A stretch of 64,000 nucleotides of DNA from Clitopilus passeckerianus (Eukaryota > Basidiomycota > Agaricomycetes > Agaricales > Entolomataceae), in assembly GCA_944990035.1 (NCBI GenBank), contig CALYLX010000149.1, forward strand, positions 744,001 to 808,000. The letters are read 5' to 3'. Position numbers and translations under genes: made by a program. Below the pieces are notes generated by a model, which saw only the letters and a program-made list of their open reading frames with translations, was not told the DNA's origin and did not search any database. Positions 32,412 to 57,229 of this stretch are shown one piece after another; position 1 is the stretch's first letter, and each line of letters starts with the position of its first letter.

Positions 32412-33622
32412 CACACCCCCATGAAGATGAAGAAACTTATCTAAGTCTTCACAGATTGACGATAGAATTCTAATCCTAGATTAGATCTATGTGGCGCAAA
32501 CTTGATCTTATCCAAATTCTTGGCAAGTAAGTCAGCTGTGTTTTCTTCGCTGGGTACAAAGTATAGCTCGATAGCACGTTCTTCGACAAAGTTCCGTATA
32601 GCATGATATTTGATGTCGATATGCTTAGAGTGTTTCTCTGTAACAGGATTTTGTCCCATAAAGATTGATCCTTGATTATCGCTAATTAACCATGTTGGTT
32701 TGGAGACATCTTGATCTATCTCGGCGAAGAGACTTCTCATCCAAACAATCTGACGTGATGTGTCAGATAGAGCCATGTATTTGGCTTCTGTAGACGAATG
32801 TGCGACAGTCTTTTGTTTACGTGTCGTCCAAGACACAAGACCACCGGCCAGTTTCAAGAAGAAACCGGAAATGGATTTATGATCATTTTTATCAGATGCC
32901 CAGTCCGAATCGGTCCAGCCATAGAGTGCCTGGTTAGATGCTCCATTGTATACAAGTGCATAGTTAGGCGTGTTTGCCAAGTACTTAAGCACATGTTTGG
33001 CTTCGTCAAGATGCTCTTTACTCGGATTCGCAGAATATTGAGCGAGCGTAATGACTGGATATGAAATATCAGGTCTTGTTCCTAACATGAGGTACAAGAG
33101 TGATCCAATAATGGATTGATATTCATGTCGGAGTTTGGGATCGACTTCGGCGGTGTTCGGGGTAGGAGCCCAGCCTTGTGGTAGACGCATGTGAGCAGAA
33201 CATTTAGCATTAGTCATTCCGTATTTCTGCAAGATCTTCTCCAAATAGGGAACTTGGTCAAGTTTTATCTTTTTGCCCTGTTTGGTTATCCACATACGTC
33301 GGAATTTCTTAGCTTCGCCAAGATCACGACATTCCCATTTTTTCATGAATTCAGATTTCATCTGTATGACGAGGTTCCAATCAGACCCCATGAACATTGC
33401 ATCATCGACGTAGACCACAGCAATAACCGTTTTGCTGCCTTTCTGGTAGATGAAAACTCCCGGGTCGCTGAGTGTTCGTTTAAATCCAAGGAATTCCATG
33501 GATTTGGTCATTTGTCTCCACCAAGACAAACTGGCTTGTTTAAGGCCATATAAGGCTCGTTTAAGTTGCCAAACCTTTTTAGGTTGTGATGGATCTTTAA
33601 ACCCTTCCGGTTGATCCATGTA

Positions 33623-33832
33623 CAGTGGGCAACAAAACCATTCCAATGTTTGCTACTTTTTCAGAGATCACTTAATAACTCAAAAAGGAAAATAGGTGAA
33701 ATCTTTGAAATAATATATAGTAAAGTTTAACATCTTGGCTTGAATCTGACATAAGCCTGAGGCTGTGCAACCACTTTTAGAAGTTGTTTCACACACTGCA
33801 AAGTGGTCACTCATTGGAAAGGTTTTGTTGCC
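33623..33832. repeat. Left terminal inverted repeat of the Tc1 element
   Basis: The 210-bp arm is matched by 35021-35230 in inverse orientation. Its outer end (GGCAACAAAACCATTCCAAT) reappears inverted at its inner end (ATTGGAAAGGTTTTGTTGCC, 33813-33832), so each arm is itself a fold-back with two transposase-site-like copies. Confidence 0.95.
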
Positions 33833-33972
33833 GCTGCTTACACAACCAATGTTTAGCTAATAAGTCACATGATACTCAACTTTGCTGATTGTGATCAACA
33901 AGGTCATGTGACCAGTGTACTAACTGACTATATAAGCAGCTGTCCTGACCATTAGATCCCTACCACTGCACC

Positions 33973-35046
33973 ATGCAACCTCTCACTAAAGTGCAAACAA
34001 TCCGCGTTCTTGAACTGCTTGACTCTGGCATTTCTGGTGCAACTATCCATACAAAAACTGGAATAGGTCTTGCTTCTATTAGTAGAATACGTAAACAACA
34101 CCGCCCACATCTTGCCAAGTCCTCTGGTGGTCGTCCCTCCAAGCTTACGCCTGCCAACATCGAATACACCAAATTAAACATGCACATGGGCAAGATTTCC
34201 ACAGCTGTCGATGCGGCCAGGGTTCTTCAAAATATTACCAACAACTCTGTTACACCTCAGACAGTACGCAGGCACCTCAAAAATACGGGTTGGAAGGCTG
34301 TGGTGAAGAGGAAACACCCTGCACTTACCAAGGCGCATAAAAAGGCTCAACTGGAATTTGCAGAGAGGCATGCAGAGTGGACTATAGAGGACTGGAAAAG
34401 GGTCTGGTGGTCTGATGAGACTAAAATCAACCGTTTTGGGTCAGATGGGAGGGAAATGGTGTGGAAAGACAAGAATGAGGGGCTTAGCAAGCGGACGGTT
34501 AAAGAAACCAGAAAGTACAGTGGTGGAAGTATTATGGTGTGGGGCTGTATAGGGTGGAAAGGGGTTGGATATGCTACCAGAATTGAAGGTAACATGGATG
34601 CTGACCTTTACACAAAAATTCTAGATGATGAACTCCAGAAAACCTTCAAGTACTACAAGCTCAAACACCACGACATCCTTTTTCAGCAGGATAACGACTC
34701 CAAGCACACTAGCAGAACAGCTCGGGAGTGGTTTGAGGACCATGATATTGATGTTCTTATATGGCCAGCACACTCTCCTGACCTTAATCCTATTGAACAT
34801 CTTTGGGTTCATGTCAAGAATGAGCTGAAAAAGTACCCGGATCCACCTGCTGAAATTTTTCAACTTTGGGAGCGGGTACAGGTTGTTTGGGATGCTATAC
34901 CAGAGGAGGTATGCCAGAATTTAATAGAGTCTACGCCTAGAAGACTTGAGGCAGTAATGAAGGCCAAAGGAGAGTGGACCCAAGTATTAATATTTATGTA
35001 TTTCTGTTTTTGTATATGCTGGCAACAAAACCTTTCCAATGAGTGA
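33973..35046 (+). CDS. Tc1/mariner DD34E transposase
   Basis: Intact 357-residue frame starting at an ATG about 45 bp after a TATATAAG box. N-terminal helix-turn-helix DNA-binding region (about 1-110) with GRPSKLT between the two halves. Catalytic acids are Asp148 (WWSDETKINRF), Asp240 (FQQDNDSKH) and Glu275 (NPIEHLW), 34 residues after the second Asp, the DD34E signature of Tc1-like enzymes. The enzyme cuts and pastes its element at TA. The C-terminus is encoded by the right inverted repeat. No stop, frameshift or intron is seen, so it may be functional. Confidence 0.95.
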   Translation: MQPLTKVQTIRVLELLDSGISGATIHTKTGIGLASISRIRKQHRPHLAKSSGGRPSKLTPANIEYTKLNMHMGKISTAVDAARVLQNITNNSVTPQTVRRHLKNTGWKAVVKRKHPALTKAHKKAQLEFAERHAEWTIEDWKRVWWSDETKINRFGSDGREMVWKDKNEGLSKRTVKETRKYSGGSIMVWGCIGWKGVGYATRIEGNMDADLYTKILDDELQKTFKYYKLKHHDILFQQDNDSKHTSRTAREWFEDHDIDVLIWPAHSPDLNPIEHLWVHVKNELKKYPDPPAEIFQLWERVQVVWDAIPEEVCQNLIESTPRRLEAVMKAKGEWTQVLIFMYFCFCICWQQNLSNE

Positions 35047-35230
35047 CCACTTTGCAGTGTGTGAAACAACTTCTAAAAGTGGTTGCACAGCCTCAGGCTT
35101 ATGTCAGATTCAAGCCAAGATGTTAAACTTTACTATATATTATTTCAAAGATTTTACCTATTTTCCTTTTTGAGTTATTAAGTGATCTCTGAAAAAGTAG
35201 CAAACATTGGAAAGGTTTTGTTGCCCACTG
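35021..35230. repeat. Right terminal inverted repeat of the Tc1 element
   Basis: Inverse of the left arm with very few mismatches. The inner end at 35021 lies inside the transposase gene: the last eight or so codons (WQQNLSNE) and the stop come from the inverted repeat. Confidence 0.95.
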
Positions 35231-38159
35231 TATATTTCCTCGTCAAGTTGACCATACAGGAAAGCAGTTTTCACATCAATACCGTGTAGATACCAGTTCT
35301 CTAATGCTGCTAGAGCGAGAAGAGTCCGGATGGTCTCGAATCGTACAACCGGTGAAAAGACTTCAGAGAAGTCTATGCCTTCGACTTGTGAGAAACCCTT
35401 GGTGACGAGTCTAGCCTTCTTTCTGCCATCAGACTTGATATCAAATACCCATCGGTTTTTGATCGTCTTTCGGCCTGGAGGTAAATCAACTAGCTCATAC
35501 ACATCACGTTCCTGGAGTGACTCTAACTCCAATGATTGTGCATGACACCATTCCTTCTGTTCTGCTTCTGGAAGTCGCAGAATGTCGCGGAGTTTCATTT
35601 TGCGAACATTTACAGGTAGACAATTAGTCGGTCCCTGTGTGTGAAGTGCCCAATATAGTGGAATATCTGGATCAGCAATACTTGAAAAGTATTGGTCAGC
35701 CTGATCTAACAGATAGTTTAACATAGGCACACCCCCATCCCGGCAAACATTCTTTGCCCAGCCCAGATGCGCATCTCGTTCTCCCAGGGTACGTTTGTGG
35801 GGAACTATAGGAGGAGCGTGCATGTCACTCTGAGCTGTATGATCATGCATCTCCACGTCGGATGTCGCGTCTGCTGACTGTTCAGATGTTATCTGATCAG
35901 AAGTATCCACGTGTACGGGATTGCTAAGATGTTCGTCCAATTGTTCATGACAATCCTGCGGTAAACACGAGGTAACATCCTGTTGTGTGGCAACTGTTTT
36001 CTCCCAGTGCCTATTCTTAGCAATGTCACGCTCAATGTGAGTTGGGTGATGTGTTTCTCCGTAGACGTTTCCAGATCTTCTGGGTACGTGCCTGTCACGT
36101 GCAGGATTCATTCTCACAGGTGTATCTCTAAATCTACGGGGAGGTTCCGCAAGGGGTTCCTTGGGTTGATGTTGGAAATTCATTTGTTTGGCTAATTGTT
36201 GTGAAGCCTGTGAATTTGGAATTTGGAATGGATAGAGCGGTCGTCGCACCGGTGGCAGTTCAAAACACCTTAAACTAAGTGGACTTCGTGGCTCTTCCTG
36301 AGTGACAGGTGGAGGGCGATTATCCTCGATGTATTCAAGTTCAGGTGAGCTCCTTTTGGATTCTCTAGCCTGCCAATCATACAGATCCTCATTTTGAGTT
36401 CCGGGGATAGGTTGTGCTAATGACTGATATGGATTTAGCTTATCCAAGTCATCGACCTCCTCTTCCTTTGGGAAATTGAGAAATCTTTTCCCTTTATCCA
36501 TCGGGGGAGATGGTGCGGAAAAATTAGTGGAATGAGTGGTTCGGGAAGATTGATCCAGAGATCGATCATTACTGTGGTCTGGTAGAGGATGGTCCGGTCT
36601 ACTGTTTCCATAACCCGATTCATCAGAAGGAAAGGTTGAATTTGGATTCAATGATCCAGTGTTGCGAGATTCTGTTGGTTTATCACCAACACGTGTGATG
36701 CCATGAACTTTATGTTCAGGACACTTTGGAAATAGTGTTTCATCAAATTGTGCCGTTGTTCCATGGAAGATGGTGTTGTTGTGCATGCACATAAATTTGA
36801 ATGCTTTCATGCCTGGTTCAATACCAATATAGATCATCAACTCAGCTTTTGGAGATAGCGAGTTTCGACGATATTCTTCTGGAAGGTAAACATAGGCACC
36901 ACAACCAAAGACTTGGAGATGTCCGATGTCGGGTTTCTCTTTATGTACTAACTCATGTGGAGTCTTCCAATCGAGTCCCCTAATAGAAGTTCGGTTGTAG
37001 ATGTGAACAGCGTGTGCGACGGAGTATTCCCACCAGGATTCTGGTAAACATGCAGTATGGTGCATGGCCAGTGCCTTGTCCATCAGAGTTTGGTTGATCC
37101 CTTCAGCTCGCCCATTTTGTTGAGGCGTGTGAGGAGTGCTTTTGAGAACTTTGATGCCTCGTGCTTTTAATTCCGCTTCAAACTTAATGAATTCGCCATC
37201 CCCATTAATCTGCCATTGTTTGATTGTAGTATTGTATTGGGTGCGTACTTTCGCTTCAAATTCCTGCATCGCTTGGAGTGCTTGAGATTTCTTGGCAAGA
37301 AAGTAAACTTCAACGTGTGAAGTCGCATCATCAAGAAAGGATATATAGTATTTCCTTTTGTGATATGAAAGCGTAGGAAACTCTTTAAGATCCGAGTGAA
37401 TCTTTTCAAAGGGCTCCTTGGCACGTGTTTCGGATGGCGGAAATGATTTAGACGGCATTTTGCCTTCTGCACATCCTTTGCAAGGCAATAAATCCTTGGG
37501 GATTTGTAGGTCTTTTGGACCATTCCGTGCGTGAACCTGAGATCTGCGTAGGACTTCCTTTGAGGGATGTGCCATACGTTGGTGCCAAATCTCATACTTG
37601 GCATTGTACACGTATTTTGCAACGTTTGCGTGACTGTCTGGAGTAACAATCACTGAATCAACCCAATAGATCTCATTATCTGAGTCATGTAGTTGACACG
37701 TTATTTCAGGAGGTCCATCACTCTTCCAATAGAAGGTGATGTGCCTGTCGTCTCCTGTCATGGTCATCTTTTCCTCACGGAGGAATTTCCCCATGGACAT
37801 TAAACAGGAGTTGGCGTCAGGTAGGTAGTAAACAGGGTATAGATGTGTCGTAACCTCTGTTGCCTTCTTGGATTTCTGGGATATAACTTTGTGTTTTATA
37901 ATTACGGTGCCGCGAATGGATATGGTGACAAGGCCATTGGCCATCGTAACACCCCCATAAGAGCCTTCTTCGTAATCGACAAAGTTACTTATATCATTGG
38001 TGAAATGATTTGATGCGCCAGAATCCATGATCCATATGGCATGGCCATTTTCTTGAGACTTGCCTTTACACATTCCACACTTATGTGCATGACGGGAAAC
38101 TTTCCGTTGCGCTTTACTTATGTTGTCCAACTTGTTTGTTACCATAGCATACAGTATGT

Positions 38160-39403
38160 CTTGACTGAGGGAGGAGGGACCACAATCACCTGGCGACATG
38201 AGGGTCCTCTGGTGGTAGACTTGACTTTCTTCTTAGACGAAGGAGTCAAGGGGTTGAGGCCAGTGGCCTGCTTGTGGATGCGAGCAATCTGCTTAGCAGA
38301 GAGCTCAGGATATACTCTAGTAAGATTGACTAGAGTGGAAATGTCACCCCCAGCAGCATCTCGAGCACGCTTGCGTCCCTGAGGTATTGGGGCTGGAGGT
38401 GCAGGGGAAGAGGCTGCAGCTGCTTTAATAGCTGCACCCTGGGAGGCAACGCGTGCAAAGGTCCCTTTTGCAAAGGGCCTTGTAGCACGATTGACCGAAG
38501 GAGGACCTGCCACAACAGCAGGACGCCCATAAGGTCGTAAGGGGCTGCACGGAGGCACAGGAGGACGTGCGTCCTTCCTACCCAGAGTAGGTTGGAAGGG
38601 AGCGAAGGAGGGTGTGGTGGTAGTTGGGATGATACCCGGTGCTGGAGTCGAGGTCTGGGAGGGTCTGGAAAGTGCAGAGAGCTGAACCTCCGCATTTGCA
38701 AACACGTCCCTAAGTTGGCGATACTCTGGGGTATGCTGGAAGGCCCCTGCAAAAGGCCACAGCTGTTAGCAGCATCCAAAAGCTGGATGATGCTCCCAAC
38801 TGTAGAGAGCGATGCAGCGACATTCAGAGAGTGTCCTGCAGAGTGAAGTTCAGCAAGCCTAGAGCTGGCTTGCCAGAAGAGTCGCTCCATACGCCTCAGG
38901 CTGGACTCAGCATCAAGCTGCTGTGTCTCAGGTCGGGGAGCAGATGCATCCGCAGAGCCAGATGGGCCCTGACCAGAAGGAACGAATGTCAGCGCTTGAG
39001 CCGACAGAGTGATAGTACCAGAATGAGGCCGCTTGGAGGTAGACTCCTCGCCGGACAGTGAGGCTGCCCTAGACAAAGTCTTGGGACAGGAAGAATGGGA
39101 CTGAGAGGAGTCACCTCCCAGAGGTGCAGAAGGGCCGCTGGAGAAGTCTCCAGAAGGGTCCTGTACCATAACATCATCGTCAGAGTCTGACAACATGTCA
39201 TGGTCTTGAGGGTTCTGTAGCACAAGATCTGCTACAGATCCACCTGATCAGGTGGACCGCCCCCGGCGATGACATCAAGAAGAGCTCATGGCTCAACTTT
39301 GAGAAAGATCGGTTGTGATCTGAACGAGTAGTAAGCAAAGTGTTGCTGGTGGTAGCTGAAATCACCACTTTGATGGTGGTGGTAAGAGATCAAGAAGCAT
39401 GCT
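38160..39403 (-). pseudogene. LINE element E, ORF1 relic (C-like family)
   Basis: The minus-strand 5' end, near 39403, carries the same start motif as element C (GATCTCTTACCACCACCATC). ORF1 fragments follow: DSDDDVMVQDPSG, SSLRRMERLFWQASSRL, then after a frameshift near 38700 DVFANAEVQLSALSRPSQ, GRKDARPPVPP, KGTFARVASQG, GGDISTLVNLTRVYPELSA and KSTTRGPSCRQVIVVPPPS. These match element C (KGTFARV, GGDIT, QSTTRGPSRK). The element stops abruptly at about 38160, where copia sequence begins; zinc knuckles and everything downstream are missing. Confidence 0.75.
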
Positions 39404-39565
39404 CCACACACTGGCAACTCCACTTCAACCCAAGAGCGTTTGGCGCTACTTGGGCTTCTACTTTGACTGGTCACTGTCTTTTAGTCACCATGTCAAGTAT
39501 TACTCCACCAAGGCTTTGACCACTGTCAAGGCAATGATTATGCTTGGTAACACATCAAGGGGTAC
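39404..39565 (+). pseudogene. LINE element F, short RT fragment
   Basis: About 150 bp on the plus strand match the part of D-family ORF2 that encodes TGNSPLQPKSVWRYLGFYF to VKAMIMLGNSS (compare 50935-51075 on the minus strand). It is diverged, with frame changes. It is sandwiched between the 5' end of element E and the 5' end of element A, so it is the remnant of an older LINE into which both inserted. Confidence 0.7.
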
Positions 39566-39676
39566 CTATCCTCTTTGATCTGTTACCACCACCATCACAG
39601 CCACAACAGCGACGCAAATTCGCCCTCAAGCACTTGCACACCGCTCAACCCTCCAGTTTTCGCGCCTGTCTGCACT

Positions 39677-41900
39677 ATGAGTAGTGCAGGAGGCACCAAG
39701 AAGAATACCCGGCCGCCGGACCCGCCTCCAACGCTCTCCACGCCTCAGAAGGGCCATGGCAGCAGCTATGGCACGTTTGATGGCGAAGAAACTCCCCAGG
39801 GCCCCTCTGGCGCTCGAAACAAGCGTCCTACTCCAGCAATGGATGAGGACGATGGTTTTGAAGCAGACGAGAGCCCTGCTCCCTCCGCACCTTCCTCCCC
39901 TGAACACAAGGGCAGGAAGGACGCCTCTGGTGCTGCTGTTGCACAGCCCAAGTCCAGAACCGCTTCCAGGGCGACTTCACCAACGCAAGGGTTTTCTCCT
40001 GCGTTCCTAGGACATTCAGAGTACGGCTCCGTGGGTTTGCAGGTCCAGGCCACGGATGATGCGGTCGAGGACGACATAGACGCGATCACTGACTCTCTTG
40101 TCACGTTCAAGGAGTGGCTCAACCGAGCCCCTTCTGCTGCCGGCGATGAGGAACACTCTCGCACTCTTGCAGACTTGCTAGTGCATGTCTGCTCTCAAGC
40201 GACCTCTGCAGGTCTCCTCAAGTACCTGACTTCAAGTGCGGACTTCCTGCCTCAAATCCGACACGTTAGGGACGCCTTGGACGCCTATATTCCCTCTCCC
40301 ACTCCCCAGCAGCGCCCTGTGCGCACTGCTGCTCCCAAAGGTGCTGCAAGTGCAGCATCTGCTTCCTCCACTGCTGCTGCAGAGGGGCATGGTGTAGCAC
40401 CGGCCTTCTCTGCTCCAGCAGTTCCCCCCACCTCCTCCAGCGTCTCACAAGGCGCCAGGACCCAGGTTACCCCTCCCCGACCCGCGGAACACACTGCCAC
40501 TGGTCACAAATCTCCGGTGCACCCAATCCGCATGCTGTGCGTGCACCGAACCCTGCTAATGCGTCTCAGCAGCAGCAGCAGCCCTCACAACAGCGTCAGC
40601 GCGCTCCCAAAGCGTCCTACGCCTCTGTCGCATCGCAGCCGCCTAGGAGGCCTGCAAACGCCGCCCCTCGCTCTTTTGCAGAGGTGACTGTTGGCATGAC
40701 TGTGCAGCAATGTGCAGAACTGGCTGAACTCGCGCGTCATCTCCCTGGACTGTCCTGGGATGAAGTAGCGCAACTCAAGGACAACTCCAACGCCAATAAG
40801 CGCAAGGCAGCGTCCTCCCCACCTCCTACTGCTCCCTCCCCTTCTAAGAAGAAGCAGAAGCTCAAATCCACGACGCGCGGCCCCTCACGCAAGCAGTGCT
40901 TCGTCTACGCCACCAGGGGCAATGGAGACAATGCTGTCTCTGTTCCTCTTCCTATCTCGCCTGAACAGGCTGTTTCCACCCTCAACCTTCGCTTTGGTGC
41001 TGGGGGCTCAAAGAACCGCGCTATCCACGCTGAACTCGGCCGGGGTAACGCTATCATCGTCTACCTTGACGAGACACCCACTCACAGCGACCTGGGCATC
41101 ATCCGGGTCGCTGTTGAGTGTGTTTGGTACCCTGTCACTGAAGGTGCCAACCCATCTCCCACCGTCCACGCTGCTGTGGAGGTTCCTACGTCGCGTTCTT
41201 ATGCACGCGCATCACAGGAGTGCCCTACTTCACCTTTGGTGCGGTGGGCAGCACTCCTATCACTGCTGATGCGGTCCTAGCACTGCTGCGTCAAGATCCT
41301 GCTACTAGTGCGCTCCAGCTTGCTGGAATGCCTCGTGTGCACCGCAACTCACGCATGCATGATATGTGTGTCGTGTTCTTCGACTTTTGGGACACCAGGT
41401 CTGGCACCTCCCTCAAGGCCATTACACACAAAAAGAGCTCCATTGGGGGACGATTGTGCCTCATCTCCCCTGCGAGCGTCCATGCTGGTGTTCCGCAGTG
41501 TCAACGCTGCTGGGCTTGGGGTCACCCCACTGCCACCTGCAGGCAGCAGTTCAACTCCTGCGCCCATTGCGGCTATGGCCATGATTCACGCAACCATCGC
41601 AAGCTTGCTCACTGCTGCTGGGGCAAGCCTGACGCTAATCCCCTGGTGCCTGCCACTCCTGATGGCGCACCATGCCCACATGCACCTAGGTGCATTAACT
41701 GTGGCAAGGAACACGAGGCTGATTCGCCCAAGTGCCCTTTTGCAAGACATCGGTTTGATGCTGGCTGGATCCAGCGCCGATATGCTGTCAACGATGCGGT
41801 AGGCTTTTCTGTTAAAGCACCGCAGAGTTATACTGACGTACTACCACCCAGGAGGAGACCGATTCAGATTGGTCGGGGTGAACGCACTGCCCGCACTTAG
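39677..41900 (+). pseudogene. LINE A ORF1, RNA-binding protein, disrupted
   Basis: ORF1 starts MSSAGGTKKNTRPP at 39677. It is broken near 40518 by a deletion of about 180 bp relative to the D2 copy, which changes frame. A second frame change comes from an extra GC dinucleotide in the SYAR/ITGVPY region (about 41207). The last frame carries three zinc-knuckle-like motifs: CQRCWAWGHPTATC, CAHCGYGHDSRNH and CINCGKEHEADSPKC. LINE ORF1 proteins bind element RNA and form the RNP. The stop is at 41898-41900; ORF2 starts 9 nt later. Confidence 0.82.
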
Positions 41901-46000: not shown

Positions 46001-46570
46001 CCCCTCAGGATTGGTAGTGGATACAGTGCGTCGAATGAGCCGCCATGGTGGCTCTTGAAGCAGAATCACGTCAGAGTCATTCTTACGTTCCTCTAGTAGC
46101 GCAGCAACCAGATCATAGTTTCTATTCACATTCTGTGAAGCGGAGAGTATTTACATGTTTGTATCGCATAAAGTAAAACTAAGTGCGGGCAGTGCGTTCA
46201 CCCCGACCAATCTGAATCGGTCTCCTCCTGGGTGGTAGTACGTCAGTATAACTCTGCGGTGCTTTAACAGAAAAGCCTACCGCATCGTTGACAGCATATC
46301 GGCGCTGGATCCAGCCAGCATCAAACCGATGTCTTGCAAAAGGGCACTTGGGCGAATCAGCCTCGTGTTCCTTGCCACAGTTAATGCACCTAGGTGCATG
46401 TGGGCATGGTGCGCCATCAGGAGTGGCAGGCACCAGGGGATTAGCGTCAGGCTTGCCCCAGCAGCAGTGAGCAAGCTTGCGATGGTTGCGTGAATCATGG
46501 CCATAGCCGCAATGGGCGCAGGAGTTGAACTGCTGCCTGCAGGTGGCAGTGGGGTGACCCCAAGCCCAGC
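43068..46570 (-). mobile_element. LINE element B/G, 3' part (minus strand)
   Basis: Poly(A) (T15 on the plus strand, 43068-43082), then a 3' UTR with a CGCCCCC-GGA-GGGGGCG hairpin (43096-43112), ORF2 and the ORF1 end. ORF2 is disrupted: a one-base loss at the CAGGG run near 45705, and an internal deletion near 44727 that removes the whole RT core (about 1.2 kb compared with D2). The RNase H domain remains (about 43690-44700; LVAADASV, DDAELAAID, VVLSDSTKAIRL), ending in a premature stop after CANLE. The 5' side is interrupted at 46570 by element C and resumes at 57217. Confidence 0.85.
46558..46570. repeat. Target duplication of element C, left
   Basis: CCCCAAGCCCAGC, identical to 57217-57229. 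The pair frames element C and belongs to the CQRCWAWG codons of element B/G ORF1. Confidence 0.92.
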
Positions 46571-46666
46571 GTCACCCTCTTGATCTCTTACCACCACCAT
46601 CAAAGTGGTGATCTCGCACTATTCGCTCAATACTTCGCTCAATTCTTGTCGGATCGACACCAAACT

Positions 46667-47610
46667 ATGTCTGGGAGTTCCTCTGGAGCTCGCCGCTATG
46701 CCTCCAACCCCCGATCTGGACCGATCGCATCGGATCCCACTCGGGATGTTGAGATGTCCTCTGAGGAGGATGAACTCAATCTCTCTGAAGGAGCACCCTG
46801 GCAACAGGTCCCTGCTCGTTCTACTACTGCCCCTCCGCGCATTAGAGCGCCTCTGGGCATTGCTGAAGGTGAAGCCATTCTTGCTTCTCGCGCTGCAGCC
46901 AAGGCAAAGCGCAAGAAGAACAGTGACTCCTCCCCTCCCACCGAGCGCGCTGGCTTTCCAGAAAAGAGACAGCGGGCTGGTACTATCACCCCGGCTTCTG
47001 TTGAACAGCAAGCCCCTCCTCCTACTGAGGAACCAGTACCTGGTCCCTCAGTTTCATCACCTCCCACTCCCTCCGCCCCCTCTGTGGGTGACGCCTTGAA
47101 GTATGTGGAGGAAACCATTCAACTTGTCTCTGCACAAGTTGAATCTATTCGTGAGCAGGGCCTCTCTCTAGAGGTTCCTGCTTCTGCCAACGTTGGTGCT
47201 GCGCTTATTCGGCTTGTCCGGGTGGCTGGTGCTAGCGGTCTTCTTCGCGCGGCGGTTAACGCGAATCCCAATATTCAGGCGGGTTTCGGCAATTTGGGGG
47301 GCATGCTCCTCAAATTTGGCCCTCAACCCTCCTCAACCCCCAACCCTACCCCGGGTGGCGCTCCTGCTCCGCCCGCTCCCACTCCCGCATCTTCCCGGCC
47401 TAACCCGGGTCGGAAGACTGCACCTCCTCCCGTCCCTCCCCGGAACCCGGCTCGTCCCTATGGGCGCCCTGTCAACGTGGCAGGTGCTGCTCCATCTGGT
47501 GGTCGTGTGAAGGTTTTGCCCAAGGGCACCTTTGCACGCGTTGTCGCAACCGCAACAGCGGCTAATGCCGCTGCTGCGCCTGCTCTCTCTACCCCCACCG
47601 TTAAGCGCTC
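46667..47610 (+). CDS. LINE C ORF1, N-terminal part
   Basis: Frame from ATG 46667 (MSGSSSGARRYASNP). Low-complexity, Pro/Ala/Ser-rich with acidic MSSEEDELNLSEG, a helical segment DALKYVEETIQLVSAQ followed by SANVGAALIRLVRV and GFGNLGGMLLKF (probable oligomerisation region), and KGTFARVVATATA. It is cut at 47610 in the codon after KR by the D2+D1 insert and continues at 55858. Counting one copy of the 14-bp duplication, both parts form a single 658-codon frame without a stop, so C was intact when D2+D1 arrived. Confidence 0.85.
47597..47610. repeat. Target duplication of the D2+D1 insert, left
   Basis: ACCGTTAAGCGCTC, identical to 55844-55857. It is part of the element C ORF1 codons for T-V-K-R-S. 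Confidence 0.93.
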
Positions 47611-48930
47611 TTTTTTTTTTTTTTTTTTTGGTCAAAGCCATACACCCCCAGAGGGGGCGTCTGACAATTTATATTCCGGCGCCCGATCGCAGTCCGGTCG
47701 CACGTACCTAAATACATGCATTGTATACTAACGTAAGTAAAGAAACCGTGTTCGTCAAGTGAACTACACTGAATACGAGGTGCACCAAAGAGCAAGCTAG
47801 GGTGGCCCCCAAGGATAAATCTAACAAGGAGTATGGTGGCGCGCAACACCCCGCAGAAGCAGCGAGAACCCTGGACGCCAGGCTCGCCGCTATATGAAGG
47901 ATGGGGCACTGACGCCTATGCATGGAAAACCATGCCAGACACTTCGGCCTGTTCTCTGCGAACAAATTGGTGTGCACCTGGCACCCAGACAAGATCATCT
48001 GGCCGCGGTGGTGCAGTGGAGCCTGTTACAGGCATTTGTCGGTGGTGGCCTCCAACAGCGGGAGTGGCACCACGAACGCGTGTGGGGGCCTTGTCAGGCG
48101 GGCCACGTTGCCGTGTCTTCCTGGTTTTAGGAAACGGCGGTGGAGGCTGTTGCGATGGAAACGCAAAAGTGGTGGGATTGTTCTCGAGGAAGAACAGGAA
48201 GGACGACAGCTCCTGACGCAAGCGCTGCCTGGGCCGTCATTCAAGGTTAGCGCACTGGTGGAGGATATGCTCCCTCGTTTCCAGTACGCGCCAATCGCAT
48301 GCACACGCTGTCTCCCCACCCAGGTTGAAGCGTGCGCGGAATTCACCAATGGGTGCATGACCCAAGACTGCGCGTGTAAGGCGCGCGGTGTGCGCATTGG
48401 AAGAGCCAACACGACGTAGCCAAGGCCCTCCTTTGAGGTGTGTGGGCCTTAGGGAGGCACCTTTGTGTGTAAGGCGCAGAAAGTTGTTGCCAGAGTAAGA
48501 AGGCTGTTGCAGCAGACAAGTCCACTCATGCAGCATTCTATCCACAGCGCGTTTCCGGCCATACCCAAGGGATGTCCGGGGTTTATTACCGGCACCCACG
48601 CGCAAGCCAGAGGCCGCCAAGTGAGCACGGTGATGAATGCCCCAGTTGAGTCTTGAAGGGACATGAACAAATTGGACGTGCCTGCTGGCGTCGCCCGAGA
48701 ACCAAGCACGTAGCTTGGAGCAGATAGACAGCGAGTGTCCTTGCCCAGAGTGGAGAGACGGGTCTAGAGCCAGCCGAATGGCTTTGGTTGAGTCTGAGAG
48801 CACAACTATCTTGAGGCAGTTGCTGCGCAAAACAGCCTTGCTTATGGACAAGTCAATGGCTGCGAGTTCAGCGTCGTCAGAGAGAGCCCTGCCCAACGCC
48901 ATTGTGTATTCTTCAGGCCCAAAGGCGCCA
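47611..48930 (-). mobile_element. LINE fragment D1, 5'-truncated, with own poly(A)
   Basis: Minus strand: poly(A) seen as T19 at 47611-47629, then a 3' UTR with a CCCCC-AGA-GGGGG hairpin, then the RNase H and C-terminal part of ORF2 (stop at 48237, frame up to 48930: AFGPEEYTMALGRALSDD, VVLSDSTKAIRL, CACDWRVLETREH). It has the same premature stop after HQCANLE as element B and is therefore not derived from D2. Its 5' end abuts the poly(A) of D2 without a target duplication. Confidence 0.88.
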
Positions 48931-49230
48931 TTTTTTTTTTTTTTTTTGGTCAAAGCCCTACGCCCCCAGAGGGGGCGTCTGACAATTTATATTCCGGCGC
49001 CCGATCGCAGTCCGGTCGCAAGTACCTAAATACATGCATTGTATACTAACGTAAGTAAAACCGTGTTCGTCGAGTGAACTACACTAGATACGAGGTGCAC
49101 CAAAGAGCAAGCTAGGGTGGCCCCCGAGGATAAATCTCCTAAGGAGTATGATAGCGTGCACCACCCCGCAGAAGCAGCAAGAACCCTGGAAACCAGGCTC
49201 GCCGCTATATGAAGGATGGAGCACTGACGC

Positions 49231-52200
49231 CTATGCATGGTAAAACATGCCAGACGCTTCGGCTTGTTCTCTGCGAACAAATTGATGTGCACCCGGTACC
49301 CAGACCAGATCGTCTGGGCGCGGTGGTGCAGTGGAGCCTGTTACAGGCATTTGTCGGTGGTGGCCTCCAACAGCGGGAGTGGCACCACGAACGCGTGTGG
49401 GGGCCTTGTCAGGCGGGCCACGTTGCCGTGTCTTCCTGGGCTTAGGAAATGGCGGTGGAGGCTGTTGCGATGGAAACGCAAAAGCAGCGGGGTTGTTCTC
49501 AAGAAAGAACAAGAAGGACGACAGCTCCCGGCGCAAGCGCTGGTTAGGCCGTCGTTGGAAGTGCGCACATTGGTGAAGGACATGGTCCCTCGTTTCCAGG
49601 GTGCGCCAATCGCACACGCACGCTGTCTTCCCATCTAGGTTGAAGTGCGCGCGGAACTCGCCAATGGGTGCATGACCCAGGACTGCACGGGTGAGGCGTG
49701 CGGTGTGCGCATTGGAAGACCCAACGCCATGTAGCCAAGGCCCACCTTTGAGATGTGTAGGCCTCAGGGAAGCGCCTTTGCTTGCAAGGCGCAGGAAGTG
49801 GTTGCCAGAGTAGGATGGCTGCTGGAGCAGACAAGTCCACTCATGCAGCATCCGGTCTACAGCGCGTTTCCGGGCATACCCAAGGGATGTCCGGGGTTTG
49901 CTACCGGCGCCCACCCGCAAGCCAGTGGCCGCCAAGTGAGCGCGATGGTGGATGTCCCAGTTGAGTCTTGAAGGGACATGAACAAAGTGGACGCGCCTGC
50001 TAGCGTCATCCGAGAACCAGGCCCGTAGCTTAGAGCAGATGGACAGTGAGTGCCCTTGCCCAGAATGAAGAGACGGGTCCAGTGCCAACCGAATGGCTCT
50101 AGTCGAGTCTGAGAGCACAACTATTTTGAAGCAGTTGTTGCGCAAGACAGCCTTGCTTATGGACGAGTCAATGGCTGCGAGTTCAGCATTGTCAGAGAGT
50201 ACCCTGCCTGATGCAATAGTGTACTCTTCAGGCCCAAAAGCGCCATGAAGGAGGGAGCAGGCAGCCACCGCTTGGTGCTTCCTGCTTTTGGGAACAGATG
50301 CATCTGCTGCAACCAACACAGTAGTGTCAGACAGGTCTGCATCAGCGCGGATCACATCCAGGTGGGTGCGACGGGAGTCAAGGGCATCCTTGGACGCTGC
50401 AATGATGATATCAAATGTAATCCTGCCAGAGTGCGTGTCCAACAGGCGCAGACCTGGGACTGCCTCAGCATGGACAGGATTGAGAGGCTCAGAGGCCCGC
50501 ACAGCGTGCATATCCGAATCAACAACTGTGGAAAGCAAGTTGCCGCGTACATGTTGCGACAAGTTGGAGAGAGATGAGGGGAGACGCATTGTCCCCTCAT
50601 ACCGTTGGTGCTTGTCACTGATCAGTGATAGCGTAGGGTGATTGCTTATCAGGGTGCCAATGCGCGCCTGGCCGCGCTCGACCAGCTTCCTGACATGCAG
50701 ATGAATAGGAGGGAGACCAGCAATAGATTCAGTCCCTCCTCCCGGAGATGTGCGAAAGGCGCCGGTTATCCACCTGGCAGCCTTGTGTTGCATAGTGCGC
50801 AAGTGCGACATAGCAGTCTTACACCTAGCACCTTTGTAGAACCAGAGGCCCACACCATACGTAGCGACCGGAAGGACACATGCACGGTAGAGCAACCGCT
50901 TCTGCATAGGGGTGATACCCCTTGATGAGTTACCAAGCATGATCATTGCCTTGACAGTGGTCAGAGCCTTGGTAGAGTAATACTTGACATGGTGGCTAAA
51001 GGATAGCGACCGGTCAAAGTAGAAGCCCAAGTAGCGCCAGACGCTCTTAGGTTGAAGTGGCGAGTTGCCAGTGTGTGGAGCAAAGCCCAAGTCAATGGCA
51101 GGATTGACATCGTTGTGCTTGCGAGAGAAGTGAAAGACCTCTGTCTTGTCATGTTCCAAGACGAGGCCAAGTGCAGTAACAAGCTCTGTGATGACAGTGT
51201 ATGCTTGTTGAAGTAGGGTGATGTTTTCCCCAAAGGATGGCGACTGAACGATGAGCGAGCCATCATCCACATACGACATGAGTGTTGTAATGCCAGGAGC
51301 GATCCTGTGTTCAAATAGCCTCATCCCCGGCACCAAATAGAGCGCGGAGAGGAGAGGGGACAAAGCAGATCCTTGACCAACGCCAACATCTGCAGAATAC
51401 TTGCTGGACTCTTCGCCGTTCCAGCTGTAGGATGTGTGTCTCCCAACAAGGTAAGACGCAAAGAAGTTGCAGACTTCCGGCGCGAAGCCCAGTCTGCGCA
51501 GTATGCGTAGCAGCATGTCATGGTTGAGAGAGGGGAAGAACTGAGCAAGGTCAAATGCGACCACGCTTGTCTTCAACCCTCTAGCCCAACCGGCTTTGAC
51601 GATGTGAGTGAGATAAACACCCACATCCTCAGTAGAGTGTTGGCGCACACCTCCAAACTGATTGGGGTGGAACACGCTGAATTTCTGCGCCTCAAACTGC
51701 ATCCGGTTTGCAAGCATCTTTTCAAAAAGTTTCCCCAGCGTGTTGAGTAACACAATAGGGCGGAACATCTTGGGAGTTGAGTAGTGTGGTTTGCCAGGCT
51801 TGGGAACGATGGCAGAGCGCGACTCCTTGAAGTGAGAGGGCCAGTGACCAACCCGAAGGCAGGCATTAGCGATCTCGACAAATTTGGCAGCAATGACAGT
51901 GTCAGCAACCAAGGACTTGAGCTGATACCATGTAAGGTGATCAGGACCTGGAGCAGAAGTGTTTGAACACTTTGCTAGTTCTTCTCTGAGCTCGTTGACA
52001 CCAAAGTCCCACCACTCGCGCGGAGGAGACTGAGGCACATCGTCGAGCACAGAGGGATCAACAGGGCGGTCAGACGCTGAGTTGTATGTGGAGTCAAGAG
52101 CGGCCCAAAGCGACTCAAGGGAATTGCAGGGTTCACCATTGTGGCGAATTGCTTCATGTGTAGGGAGCTCACGCTGTTTGGCCCAGCGCATAAGATCCCA

Positions 52201-53322
52201 TGGACGCTTGTTGGTAGTAGCAATTGTCTGGATCCTACTATCAAAGAATTTGGGCTTGGCCACCTTGGTGGTCCTGCGGAACACCTTGTAATCAGCGACC
52301 GCCCTGGAAGCGCGATACACTCTGACAGCCTCAGAGCACTCAGGATTCCACCAGGACTTTGACTTGGTGGAAATGCGAGCAGTCTTTGAGTTGTCATCCC
52401 AAGACTGCTTAATAGCAGTTGCAACGGCGCCAGTGCAGCGTTCAATTGCTTCTGCTGTTGTGAGAGTGGTTGTGTCCAATGCTCGCAAGGAAGAGGACAG
52501 TTCCTTCAGGAACTCTTCCTCTTGCTCACTGCCCTTGGGCAGAGTGATGCGCTCAGTAGCCAGCTGCACAGGCTGGATACGGAGCGTGACGGTCAAGGGA
52601 GCGTGGTCAGAGGGTCCTTTCCACTCTGTGACCACGCTATGTGAAGTCCCTGCAGTGCGACCCACAGGGAGGAAGAATAGATCAATGACTGAGGGCCTAA
52701 GGCTGCCAGCATGTGGGAAGTGAGTAGGAGTGCGTTCTGGTAGAACACTAACCTCCAAACCCAGGTCAAGCGCGACATCACATAGCTCAGTTGCAACATG
52801 ATTTGTAGAGTCATAGTCCGGATCCCAGACTGACGACTTGCAGTTGAAGTCCCCTGCCATGCAGAGCATGCTTGGGAGACGTGGAGCATTGTCACACAAC
52901 CAGCGAATGGCAGTACCATCCCCTGGGCTAGAGTAGACATTGGCAAAGTGTATTTGAGCACCTGTGCTCCCATACAGTGTAGTGACCAATACATCATTGT
53001 GGTTGGCGAGCTCAGTGCGAAATGCAGGCCTCATGCCTGCAAGACGCCTATGCACAAACGTCATAACGCGTGGGCGGTCAGTCTCAGATGCTGGATGTCT
53101 AAACATGACTAGCCAGTCAGGATGAGTAGGAGCACCAATCACTGCCTCTCCCTCAGGATTGGTAATGGATACAGTGCGTCGAATGAGCCGCCATGGTGGC
53201 TCTTGAAGCAGAATCACGTCAAAGTCATTCTTATGTTCCTCTAGTAGCGCAGCAACCAGATCATAATTTCTATTCACGTTCTGTGAAAAGAAGCGGAGAG
53301 TATTTACATGATTGTATCGCAT
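49231..53322 (-). CDS. LINE D2 ORF2: endonuclease, reverse transcriptase, RNase H
   Basis: Uninterrupted frame of 1363 residues from ATG 53322 (MRYNHVNTLRFF), 9 nt after the ORF1 stop. Endonuclease about 1-245 (ILLQEPPW, MAGDFNCKS, SVIDLFFLP, SDHAPL). RT about 480-800 with FRPIVLLNTLGKLFEK (near 520), FDLAQFFPSLNHD, GQGSALSPLLSALY and the catalytic YVDDGSL (near 682). RNase H around 1000-1130 (VAADASVPKS, DNAELAAID, VVLSDSTRAIRL). A C-terminal zinc-like motif CVCDWRTLETRDHVLHQC lies near 1230-1250, followed by a Pro-rich tail. All catalytic acidic residues are visible, so the enzyme may be active. It nicks DNA and copies element RNA at the nick. Confidence 0.93.
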   Translation of the reverse strand: MRYNHVNTLRFFSQNVNRNYDLVAALLEEHKNDFDVILLQEPPWRLIRRTVSITNPEGEAVIGAPTHPDWLVMFRHPASETDRPRVMTFVHRRLAGMRPAFRTELANHNDVLVTTLYGSTGAQIHFANVYSSPGDGTAIRWLCDNAPRLPSMLCMAGDFNCKSSVWDPDYDSTNHVATELCDVALDLGLEVSVLPERTPTHFPHAGSLRPSVIDLFFLPVGRTAGTSHSVVTEWKGPSDHAPLTVTLRIQPVQLATERITLPKGSEQEEEFLKELSSSLRALDTTTLTTAEAIERCTGAVATAIKQSWDDNSKTARISTKSKSWWNPECSEAVRVYRASRAVADYKVFRRTTKVAKPKFFDSRIQTIATTNKRPWDLMRWAKQRELPTHEAIRHNGEPCNSLESLWAALDSTYNSASDRPVDPSVLDDVPQSPPREWWDFGVNELREELAKCSNTSAPGPDHLTWYQLKSLVADTVIAAKFVEIANACLRVGHWPSHFKESRSAIVPKPGKPHYSTPKMFRPIVLLNTLGKLFEKMLANRMQFEAQKFSVFHPNQFGGVRQHSTEDVGVYLTHIVKAGWARGLKTSVVAFDLAQFFPSLNHDMLLRILRRLGFAPEVCNFFASYLVGRHTSYSWNGEESSKYSADVGVGQGSALSPLLSALYLVPGMRLFEHRIAPGITTLMSYVDDGSLIVQSPSFGENITLLQQAYTVITELVTALGLVLEHDKTEVFHFSRKHNDVNPAIDLGFAPHTGNSPLQPKSVWRYLGFYFDRSLSFSHHVKYYSTKALTTVKAMIMLGNSSRGITPMQKRLLYRACVLPVATYGVGLWFYKGARCKTAMSHLRTMQHKAARWITGAFRTSPGGGTESIAGLPPIHLHVRKLVERGQARIGTLISNHPTLSLISDKHQRYEGTMRLPSSLSNLSQHVRGNLLSTVVDSDMHAVRASEPLNPVHAEAVPGLRLLDTHSGRITFDIIIAASKDALDSRRTHLDVIRADADLSDTTVLVAADASVPKSRKHQAVAACSLLHGAFGPEEYTIASGRVLSDNAELAAIDSSISKAVLRNNCFKIVVLSDSTRAIRLALDPSLHSGQGHSLSICSKLRAWFSDDASRRVHFVHVPSRLNWDIHHRAHLAATGLRVGAGSKPRTSLGYARKRAVDRMLHEWTCLLQQPSYSGNHFLRLASKGASLRPTHLKGGPWLHGVGSSNAHTARLTRAVLGHAPIGEFRAHFNLDGKTACVCDWRTLETRDHVLHQCAHFQRRPNQRLRRELSSFLFFLENNPAAFAFPSQQPPPPFPKPRKTRQRGPPDKAPTRVRGATPAVGGHHRQMPVTGSTAPPRPDDLVWVPGAHQFVRREQAEASGMFYHA

Positions 53323-53331
53323 AAAGTAAAG

Positions 53332-55733
53332 TTATGTGCGGGCAGTGCGTTCACCCCGACCAATCTGAATCGGTCTCCTCCTGGGTGGTAGTACGTCAGT
53401 ATAACTCTGCGGTGCTTTAACAGAAAAGCCTACCGCATCGTTGACAGCATATCGGCGCTGGATCCAGCCAGCATCAAACCGATGTCTTGCAAAGGGGCAC
53501 TTGGGCGAATCAGCCTCGTGCTCCTTGCCACAGTTGATGCACCTAGGTGCATGTGGGCATGGTGCGCCATCAGGAGTGGCAGGCACCGGGGGATTAGCGT
53601 CAGGCTTGCCCCAGCAGCAGTGGGCAAGCTTGCGATGGTTGCGCGAATCATGGCCATACCCGCAATGCGCGCAGGAGTTGAACTGCTGCCTGCAGGTGGC
53701 AGTGGGGTGACCCCACGCCCAGCAGCGTTGACACTGCGGAACGCCAGCATGGACGCTCGCAGGGGAGATGAGACACAATCGTCCCCCAATGGAGATCTTT
53801 TTGTGTGTAATGGCCTTGAGGGAGGTGCCAGACCTGGTGTCCCAAAAGTCGAAGAACACAACGCACATATCATGCGTGCGTGAGTTGCGGTGCACACGAG
53901 GCATTCCAGCAAGCTGGAGCGCACTGGTAGCAGGGTCTTGACGCAGCAGTGCTAGGACCGCATCAGCAGTGATCGGAGTGCTGCCCACCGCACCAAAAGT
54001 GAAGTAGGGCACTCCTGTGATGCGCGTGCATAAGAACGCGACGTAGGAACCTCCACAGCAGCGTGGACGGTGGGAGATGGGTTGGCACCTTCAGTGACAG
54101 GGTACCAAACACGTTCAACAGCGACCCGGATGATGCCCAGGTCGCTGTGGGTGGGTGTCTCGTCAAGGTAGACAATGATAGCGTTACCCCTGCCGAGTTC
54201 AGCATGGATAGCGCGGTTCTTAGACCCACCAGCACCACAGCGAAGGTTGAGGGTGGAAACAGCCTGTTCAGGCAAGATAGGAAGAGGAACAGAGACAGCA
54301 TTGTCTCCATTGCCTCTGGTGGCATAGACGAAGCACTGCTTGCGTGAGGGGCCGCGCATCGTGGATTTGAGCTTCTGCTTCTTCTTCAAAGGGGAGGGAG
54401 CAGTAGGGGGTGGGGAGGACGCTGCCTTGCGCTTATTGGCGTTGGAGTTGTCCTTGAGTTGCACTACTTCATCCCAGGACAGTCCGGGGAGATGACGCGC
54501 GAGTTCAGCAAGTTCTGCACATTGCTGCGCAGACATGCCAGCAGTTACCTCTGCAAAAGAGCGAGGGGCAGCGTTTGCAGGCCTCCTAGGCGGCTGCGAA
54601 GCGACAGAAGCGTAGGACGCCTTGGGAGCGCGCTGACGCTGTTGTGGTTGCTGCTGCTGCTGCTGGGACGCATTAGCAGGGTTGGGCGCACGCACAGCAT
54701 GCGGATTGGGTGCCCTGCGCGTTGCAGGAGCCTGTGGGGCAGGCCTAGCGAACTGGCGCTGCCATTGCATCCAGTTTCCGGAGTTTACCCGCCCTGGTTG
54801 CGATGTGGAAGGTGTAGCACCTGAGTCCGGTCCAGGGACCGGGTTGTCAGGTTGCTGAGATGTCGCTGTGGACTCCTGTCCCTCCATCGGAACCGGAGAT
54901 TTGTGACCAGTGGCAGTGTGTTCCGCGGGTCGGGGAGAGGTAACCTGGGTCCTGGCGCCTTGTGAGACGCTGGAGGAGGTGGGGGGAACTGCTGGAGCAG
55001 AGGAGGCCGGTGCTACACCATGCCCATCTGCAGCAGCAATCCAAGAAGCAGACACTGCGCTTGCGGCACCTTTGGGAGCAGCAGTGCGCACAGGGCGCTG
55101 CTGGGGAGTGGGAGAGGGAATATAGGCGTCCAAGGCGTCCCTAACGCGTCGGATTTGAGGCAGGAAGTTCTCATTTGAGGTGAGATACTTGAGAAGGCCT
55201 AGGGAGGCCGCTTGAGAGCAGACATGCAAAAGCATGTCTGCAAGAGTGCGAGAGTGTTCCTCGTCGCTGGCAGCAGAAGGGGCCCGGTTGAGCCACTCCT
55301 TGAAGGTGACAAGAGAGTCAGTGATCGCGTCTATGTCTTCCTCGACCGCGTCATCCGTGGCCTGCACCTGCAAACCCACGGAATCATACTCTGAATGTCC
55401 TAGGAACGCAGGAGAGAACCCTTGCGTTGGTGAAGTCGCCCTAGAGGCGGTTCTGGACTTGGGCTGCGCAACGGCAGCACCAGAGGCGTCCTTCCTGCGC
55501 TTGTGCTCAGGGGAGGAGGGAGCAGAGGGAGCAGGGCTCTCATCTGCTTCAAAACCATCATCCTCATCCATTGCTGGAGTAGGACGCTTGTTTCGAGCGC
55601 CAGAGGGGCCCTGGGGTGTTTCCTCGCCATCAAACGCGCCATAGCTACTGCCATGGCCTTTCTGAGGCGTGGAGGGCGTCGGAGGCGGGTCCGGCGGCCG
55701 GGTATTCTTCTTGGTGCCTTCTGCACTACTCAT
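53332..55733 (-). pseudogene. LINE D2 ORF1, one frameshift before the zinc knuckles
   Basis: Frame from ATG 55733 (MSSAEGTKKNTRPP) stays open to 53952, but its true C-terminus lies in another frame. At about 54023-54030 an extra GC dinucleotide (TGCGCGTGC versus TGCGTGC in B/G) shifts the frame just after SRSYAR. The zinc-knuckle part (CQRCWAWGHPTATC, CAHCGYGHDSRNH, CINCGKEHEADSPKC) then follows in the second frame to 53332. The same extra dinucleotide occurs in element A. Apart from this the gene is intact. Either ORF1 is supplied in trans or the site is bypassed. Confidence 0.82.
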
Positions 55734-55843
55734 AGTGCAGACAGGCGCGAAAACTAGAGGGTTGAGCGGTGTGCAAGTGCTTGAGGGCGAATTTGCGTCG
55801 CTGTTGTGGCTGTGATGGTGGTGGTAACAGATCAAAGAGGATG

Positions 55844-55857
55844 ACCGTTAAGCGCTC
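55844..55857. repeat. Target duplication of the D2+D1 insert, right
   Basis: ACCGTTAAGCGCTC directly outside the 5' end of D2. No such copy occurs at the D1/D2 border (48930), so the duplication belongs to the whole composite. Confidence 0.93.
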
Positions 55858-56890
55858 TGGCGCTAAAGTGGGTGGTGACATCACTGCTCTGGCCGCTCTG
55901 GCTAGGGCCTATCCCAATTTGAATGCTGAGCAACTTGCCCACATTCACTTGAAGGCCTCTGGCCAGCCTTCTCCTGCACCCAAGCCTACCCAGGTTAAGG
56001 TGCAGTCCACCACACGTGGTCCTTCTCGCAAGAGGATCATCGCTATCCCTTCCGCGACTGTCACTGCTTCTGTTTCCCTTGAGACTATTGTGGCAACGGT
56101 CAATCGTGGCCTCACCAAGAGGTCAAAACTCCGCATTGAGACTGCCTCCCTTGGCATGGGAGGCTACTTCATGCACACCACTCAGGTCCCCAACGCTGCC
56201 GACCTTGAGATTGTTTCCGAGTGGCTGGTCAAGGCCTTCCCAGCTGGCACCCCCGCTTTCACCTGTGAGGTACCGCAGTCATGGTCCTACCTCAAAATTG
56301 TCAATGCCCCCTACCTCTCTGTCAACGCCGACGGGGAGGAGGTCACGCTATCCCGCCCTGCCATTGAGTCTGTACTCACTGCGGGTGACACCCTTCACGG
56401 TGCACAGTTGGCCGCCCCTCCGCGAGTTGTTCACAACTCAAAGACGGCCGACTCATGCACTGTCGTCTTCGAGGTCTGGGACACCCGCCGGGGTGCTCGC
56501 CTCCGTGACCTAGACGGGACACGTGTCCTTGTCTATGGTCGTTCCTGCCTACTTCGCGGTGCGGAGAAAAGGCCTGGAGTCCCTCAGTGTCGGCGCTGCT
56601 GGCACTTTGGTCATACTGCAGACAAATGCCCTGTCAAGGGCGATGTCTGCTCTCATTGCGGGGGGTCTCATAATGTGGCTCTCCATCGTCGTCTAGCGTC
56701 TTGCTGCAAGGGCAATGCCAACGCTACCCCACCAGTGGCTCCTACCCCAGATGGGACCCCCTGCCCTCACTCTGCCAAGTGCGTCAACTGTGGCAAGCAT
56801 CACTCTTCCGATGACCGCAAATGCGTGTTCTGGAAGAATCAATTCAATATCAACTGGATCCTCAGTGGATACCACCGTGATCGGGTCTAA
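55858..56890 (+). CDS. LINE C ORF1, C-terminal part with zinc knuckles
   Basis: Second part of element C ORF1, resuming after the duplicated target 55844-55857. Seen: GGDITALAALARAYPNLNA, QSTTRGPSRKR, WSYLKIVNAP, then three Cys/His motifs CRRCWHFGHTADKC, CSHCGGSHNVALH and CVNCGKHHSSDDRKC, and a C-terminus NINWILSGYHRDRV. These correspond block by block to ORF1 of A, D2, B/G and H, although sequence identity is low. The likely role is binding of element RNA and chaperone activity. After the stop (56888-56890) there is only 3' UTR. Confidence 0.85.
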
Positions 56891-57216
56891 CTAGACTCGG
56901 CCACGACGCCAACGTCCACCTGGGCGTCCAGCGCTTGTCTTTACACGCCGCTATACTCCATGCAGGTGCCGTTCCACCATGCACCCCTTACCCCTACTGG
57001 GCCCCGCTGGACACTAGTCGCTGCTTGCAGCCATGTGTTCATTTCAGATTTGCACTCTTGATTTGCTGCCGTACTTAGTGTATGGACCTTATTTGTCAAT
57101 GTCTTTACTTTTGTATTAGATACACCCGCCGGACTGCTATCGCGCACCGGGGTATAAATTTTCTGACAACCCCTGCGGGGGTGTTGGATTTGATCTCAAA
57201 AAAAAAAAAAAAAAAA

Positions 57217-57229
57217 CCCCAAGCCCAGC
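57217..57229. repeat. Target duplication of element C, right
   Basis: CCCCAAGCCCAGC directly after the poly(A) tract of element C, identical to 46558-46570. Confidence 0.92.

Follow-up and report, generated by a model that had tools for sequence, protein, structure and literature searches.

Element C in the window

The window analysed here is the whole stretch of 64,000 nt taken from contig CALYLX010000149.1 of Clitopilus passeckerianus, and coordinates given without a contig name are positions in it. Its forward strand carries, at 46571-57216, element C, a long interspersed nuclear element (LINE) whose coding part consists of open reading frame 1 (ORF1) only and which is interrupted by a nested insert of two LINEs of the D family (Table 1). 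In this copy the 3' untranslated region (UTR) follows ORF1 with no ORF2 in between. An earlier note on this DNA had described element C as a 13-bp target duplication, a 5' motif, one ORF, a 3' UTR and a poly(A) without ORF2, and all of these parts are present in the window sequence. It had also counted 658 codons and three zinc knuckles in ORF1 once the nested insert is discounted. The coordinates bear this out: the two pieces of ORF1 share a frame and join to 944+1033 = 1977 nt, that is 658 codons and a stop. A copy of C on contig C122 has an uninterrupted ORF1 of 658 codons, thus the open frame is independent of the way in which the insert is treated. Our data imply that C is very probably a family of ORF1-only LINEs in which ORF1 has been under selection.

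Table 1. Features of element C, of the LINEs nested in it and of a neighbouring E-family element, in window positions.
Feature	Position	Strand	Size	Remarks
Left target-site duplication of C, CCCCAAGCCCAGC	46558-46570		13 bp	Letters identical to 57217-57229
5' UTR of C	46571-46666	+		
Start codon of C ORF1	46667-46669	+		ATG
C ORF1, piece 1	46667-47610	+	944 nt	N-terminal, proline-rich
C ORF1, piece 2	55858-56890	+	1033 nt	Includes stop codon
Predicted RRM-like fold in C ORF1	56033-56269	+		Beta-alpha-beta-beta-alpha-beta; structure model
Three CCHC-like zinc knuckles in C ORF1	56588-56824	+		
3' UTR of C	56891-57197	+	307 bp	
Tail core	57132-57159	+	28 nt	Common to C, D and E families
3' hairpin of C	57162-57188	+		Counterparts in D tails
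Poly(A) of C	57198-57216	+		
Right target-site duplication of C, CCCCAAGCCCAGC	57217-57229		13 bp	
Target duplication of nested insert, left copy, ACCGTTAAGCGCTC	47597-47610	+	14 bp	
Nested insert in C ORF1	47611-55843			Two antisense D-type LINEs, one 5'-truncated, one full-length
Nested 5'-truncated D-family LINE	47611-48930	-		Poly(A), read as T, at left end
Nested full-length D-family LINE	48931-55843	-		ORF1 split over two frames in this copy
ORF2 of nested D element	49231-53331	-	1366 aa, open	Endonuclease and reverse transcriptase; candidate type of enzyme donor
Target duplication of nested insert, right copy, ACCGTTAAGCGCTC	55844-55857	+	14 bp	
E-family element, 5' part and ORF1	38142-39397	-		Cut by copia-type element before its 3' end; 3' part not seen

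C is a multi-copy family without ORF2

Searches of the same genome yielded 40 matches to the 3' UTR of C (short tail-only ones counted), 52 to its 5' part and 119 to the C-terminal protein of its ORF1; all three counts are lower bounds in which fragments are included, and other families account for the protein matches at 34-54% identity. Of the 3' UTR matches in the merged loci, 29, the window copy among them, start no more than 6 nt from the UTR start. ORF1 sequence overlaps the UTR or ends at most 3 nt upstream of it in every one of these 29 copies, and an ORF2 ahead of the UTR was found in none of them (0/29). The last ORF1 codons are reached at the same point in 27 of the junctions, while the remaining two carry deletions, a small one over the stop codon in C140 and a larger one in C62b. 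The merged loci hold five further UTR matches: C84b lies behind an ORF1 deletion, C152:107165 behind a diverged ORF1, one is a D tail, and the last two come from a single truncated C84 copy with an antisense D fragment beside it.

The script recognised both ends in 14 of the 27 copies listed for a search of target duplications, and exact duplications of 12-16 bp flank nine of these 14; the window copy has one as well. This implies that the ORF1-only form itself has moved many times. A single-copy deletion product is ruled out by the copy number and the uniformity of the junction, and the 29 junctions with ORF1, the absence of ORF2 from all of them and the separate target duplications together mean that C is not a one-off deletion. 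The idea of an ORF1-only lineage, put forward in the earlier note, could have fallen in two ways, if other copies carried ORF2 between this ORF1 and this 3' UTR, or if C were one copy with an internal deletion; neither was observed. Instead, C has what is expected of an ORF1-only LINE: multiple copies built as ORF1-3'UTR-poly(A) without ORF2, and insertions of its own with target duplications.

The copies are 88-98% identical to the one on C122, and near-identical duplicates also occur (C30a/b and C152a/b; C66a and C66b are 98.7% alike). At C152:98227-104570 two C copies in opposite orientation are identical over 2162 compared columns, and the sequence 5' of one matches that 3' of the other, the arrangement that an inversion between the two would leave. 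Two copies at C30:58786-64844 share an in-frame deletion of 201 nt as well as their 5' flank, which lies in opposite orientation, and are a segmental duplication. A diverged C-like ORF1-only copy, L087 (C43:120200-121750), has another 3' hairpin stem and is joined to an antisense D 5' end.

Selection on ORF1

The earlier note had called for a test of purifying selection on ORF1. We used 25 copies (three near-duplicates were dropped) and two-state sites covered in at least 12 copies; the sites were binned by the number of copies with the rarer letter, and the ratio of nonsynonymous to synonymous changes was expressed relative to the mutation-spectrum expectation. Private variants, found in one copy, have a ratio of 1.0 (231:100). 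The ratio is 0.83 for variants in two copies (72:41), 0.57 for those in 3-4 copies (53:45, p=0.004) and 0.24 for those in at least five (25:61, p=2e-10), and the difference between private variants and those in three or more copies is highly significant (Fisher p=1.5e-9, 25 copies). At three or more copies the ratio is 0.27 after removal of CpG-type sites (27 copies) and about 0.40 in both halves of ORF1; the off-frame sense controls give 1.37 and 2.61, and the antisense frames 1.10, 2.72 and 0.49. Purifying selection on ORF1 is thus seen as constraint on the shared substitutions together with neutrality of the private ones. Therefore, C copies decay neutrally once inserted, and the lineages that spread keep the protein.

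The ORF1 protein

A structure model was built for the last 296 residues of C ORF1 from 11 aligned sequences (mean predicted local distance difference test score, pLDDT, 66). Close to the start of the model is a confident fold like the RNA-recognition motif (RRM), a second such fold is weaker, and three CCHC-like knuckles follow this region. The best matches of the model in the PDB are the tandem-RRM proteins SFPQ/NONO, HuR and Pub1 (E about 1e-4 to 1e-3), with low whole-chain TM-scores of about 0.2-0.3. A Pfam search with both parts of ORF1 gave no significant match, the knuckles included. The predicted RRM-like domains and the knuckles would suit a role in coating RNA.

Related LINE families and the candidate enzyme donor

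C ORF1 is 32-53% identical to the ORF1s of the autonomous LINEs found. The earlier note had held that the 5' start and 3' end of C resemble those of the D family. This is true of both ends, but the likeness is short: the C 5' UTR shares about 31-35 nt at the 5' end with D-family LINEs (88-90%), and 38 nt close to the start are common to it and E (97%). At the other end the final ~60-85 nt of C are 78-82% alike to the D 3' end, and the C 3' UTR outside this tail has no match to D. The 28-nt tail core common to C, D and E has 180 matches in the genome at no more than one mismatch, as opposed to 0 for the reversed control. C and D tails also have a terminal hairpin whose stems differ by an A-U/G-C exchange; this hairpin is absent from E. 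The D2-type tail, 81% alike to C over 68 nt, is slightly closer to it than the D1-type tail (78% over 59 nt).

D-family copies are numerous, and the family has open ORFs. Among the best matches of the reverse transcriptase part of the nested D ORF2, those with a name are proteins of Cyclocybe aegerita, Candolleomyces and other mushrooms, with 50-57% identity at the top of the list, which sets this genome close to the Agaricales. The D copies at 39551-41900 (+) and 53332-55847 (-) have the same apparent ORF1 frameshift, at which the D2 copy L089 reads through; this D lineage with the frameshift may, too, have relied on help in trans for its copying.

As C has no copying enzyme and yet has spread many times under selection, it probably borrows the enzyme from a neighbouring element, and the 3' tail that it has in common with autonomous D fits a borrowing of the D reverse transcriptase. 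In such a cycle the C RNA would be made by polymerase II, the ORF1 protein would coat its own RNA (cis preference), and the D ORF2 protein would recognise the shared tail and copy C by target-primed reverse transcription. To judge from the sequences, we favour D as the donor, with some reserve. One could argue that an ORF2 of the F family or of another type, and not that of D, moves C. The F LINEs carry ORF2, their ORF1 is 46-53% identical to that of C (57% to that of E) and thus nearer to it than D ORF1, and the F 3' end was sought in C152 and by tail and UTR patterns and was not found. However, the F copies seen are few and broken, with seven matches at the junction of ORF1 and ORF2, a number that takes in fragments and the query locus itself, and one 27-nt match, whereas D has the open ORFs and the copy number described above, and it is rather unlikely that D is not the donor.

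E appears to be a second, rare ORF1-only family, on the evidence of two damaged or incomplete loci (C152 and C43); in these, a UTR of some 300 nt and then an A-rich end come after ORF1, and ORF2 is absent. In the ORF1 tree E joins F (support 97/94), and the topology test does not reject C and E as a clade (p-AU 0.069). A 22-nt block of the 3' UTR is common to C and E (95%) and has no match in D. Its motif has 24 matches at 0-1 mismatch, all within C or E 3' UTR matches; 39 more appear at two mismatches, where the background equals that of the reversed control (35 in all). C and E may have lost ORF2 independently of one another, or there may have been a single loss together with an exchange of ORF1. 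The copia-type element that cuts the E-family ORF1 in the window lies at 32441-38232 (-) and is itself split at 33949-35046 (+) by an ORF that resembles a DDE transposase.

Alternatives to a selected ORF1-only family

As a whole, the explanation that we consider likely is that C is a non-autonomous ORF1-only family with a conserved 5' start, an ORF1 for a predicted RNA-binding protein, a 3' UTR of its own and a 3' tail in common with D, the copying of which would be driven by D. Several observations speak against it. The autonomous parent of C was not found, so that the loss of ORF2 is deduced, and the similarity between C and D is confined to the element ends. The model of the C-terminal half of ORF1 has a mean pLDDT of only 66, and relatives of C ORF1 in other species were found in neither of two protein searches (E 1e-5 with 7995 candidates scored and E 1e-3 with 3223 candidates). 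One antisense frame also has a low ratio (0.49), which is expected because this frame shares the wobble positions of ORF1. Finally, one nonsense change, at ORF1 codon 16, is present in five rows of the alignment (C30a, C30b, C30c, C62a and C34c); some of the carrier copies may have moved, or the site may be a mutational hot spot.

It could be that ORF1 is kept only since its translation protects the RNA or loads factors onto it, for instance by avoiding early-stop decay, and that the protein itself is not needed. This would agree with the large deletions inside ORF1. Among deletions of at least 100 nt, 10/12 are in frame (p=5e-4), or 11/13 with an ambiguous one counted (p=2e-4), where one third is expected, and in-frame deletions occur even where most of the protein is gone (1224 nt). 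At a limit of at least 30 nt the pattern is weaker, 10/16 (p=0.016) or 11/17 with the ambiguous one (p=0.008). Out-of-frame deletions in the third C copy of C152 are part of these counts. The ambiguous case is copy C122c, with 330 nt in blastn and 329+1 in MAFFT. Excluded from the counts were three deletions, two in C62b and one in C84b, that include the start codon or extend beyond the stop; in C140, a 38-nt deletion covering the stop and several clustered small gaps were likewise left out. As the pattern had been noticed in the same copies before counting, and the 100-nt cut was chosen after the data had been seen, the frame-keeping of large deletions is a post hoc hint and serves only as a lead. 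Moreover, the amino-acid sequence is conserved beyond what the keeping of a frame would require, as seen in the ratio of variants in five or more copies and in both halves of ORF1. Thus it is improbable that translation alone is what matters. Introns were also considered for the large gaps in some C copies and are not supported, as the junctions inspected show no GT-AG ends.

Even less probable is an origin of the C copies by internal deletion from an autonomous family that has lost its full-length members, or of which the assembly lacks them, with ORF1 under selection only while ORF2 was present. It is true that ORF1 of the C type must originally have come from an autonomous LINE, and the related F LINEs do have ORF2. 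However, all 29 intact UTR starts are joined to ORF1, 27 of them at the same point, and no ORF2 was seen beside C ORF1 or before the C 3' UTR. In addition, the selected substitutions segregate among the copies that have this junction and lack ORF2, and the simplest reading is that they arose once the junction had been formed. The notion that the ORF1 copies form a gene family of the host, or that it has co-opted them as effector-like genes, like EKA of powdery mildew, is hardly credible, for although fungal co-option of a LINE ORF1 is on record (PMC4641428), C copies have poly(A) and target duplications, are nested in LINE islands and carry neutral private substitutions.

Genomic setting

Matches to C 3' UTR, 5' part and ORF1 and to the tail core (100 of its 180 matches were used for this mapping) lie on 26 contigs, in one stretch of at most ~76 kb per contig; examples are C34:1011295-1087027, C66:650920-703590 and C146:783358-832177, and contigs of 1-3 Mb also have a single block. 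The chromosomes of Agaricus bisporus each have one large repeat cluster, the only place where four HaTad families are found, and this cluster is described as the likely centromere (PMC7473861). By analogy, the LINE blocks of C. passeckerianus may be putative centromeres in which the C family lives. More doubtful is a wider notion, that parasitism by ORF1-only elements had two or more origins (C and E) among these putative centromeric LINEs and that translation of the element's own in-frame ORF1 is needed in cis, deletion derivatives included.

Comparison with known systems

Some short interspersed nuclear elements (SINEs) have a LINE-like 3' tail in common with an autonomous LINE, and C is like them at its 3' end but differs by its long selected protein. 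HeT-A of Drosophila is a LINE with a zinc-knuckle Gag and without a reverse transcriptase, and it relies on the reverse transcriptase of a relative. It is codependent with TART and TAHRE at chromosome ends (PMC2881922). HeT-A builds telomeres, whereas the C copies lie inside contigs, in internal LINE islands, and have target duplications. HAL1 (half-L1) is non-autonomous, encodes only the ORF1 protein and has several independent origins (PMC5753468), and C resembles it as a LINE derivative that codes for this protein alone. Contrastingly, HAL1 comes from mammalian L1, while C ORF1 is of the zinc-knuckle type (CCHC) and homologous to the D and F ORF1s of its own fungus, a distinction drawn without a direct comparison with L1. 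An L1 transcript with ORF1 only is retrotransposed by the ORF2 protein in trans, better than the other polymerase II transcripts tested (PMC2666806).

In fungi, D looks like a Tad/HaTad-type LINE by its make-up (a knuckle ORF1, an ORF2 with endonuclease and reverse transcriptase, one block per contig). Tad/HaTad-type LINEs carry this ORF2 in the element; D has it and C does not. The nearest fungal case that we have met is that of the Blumeria EKA genes and the Satine and Kryze LINEs, where effector genes derive from truncated, degenerate copies of LINE ORF1 and are under positive selection (PMC4641428). These are, like C, fungal LINE ORF1 sequences apart from ORF2. EKA copies, however, are truncated before the knuckles, and the cited passages claim no mobile ORF1-only family, while C retains the knuckles. 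Searches of the open-licence PMC literature turned up no account of a mobile fungal LINE family that consists of ORF1 only, which does not contradict the statement of the earlier note that such elements are little described there.

In its design C works like HAL1 and HeT-A, apparently in another LINE group than mammalian L1 and the Drosophila telomere elements. It would be, as far as we are aware, the first well-supported ORF1-only LINE family in fungi. If this is true, it suggests a general strategy of parasitism, in which the enzyme is dropped and the RNA-binding protein kept. C is also a natural test of why LINEs need the ORF1 protein: selection on ORF1 alone, without ORF2, argues for a protein that acts on its own RNA.

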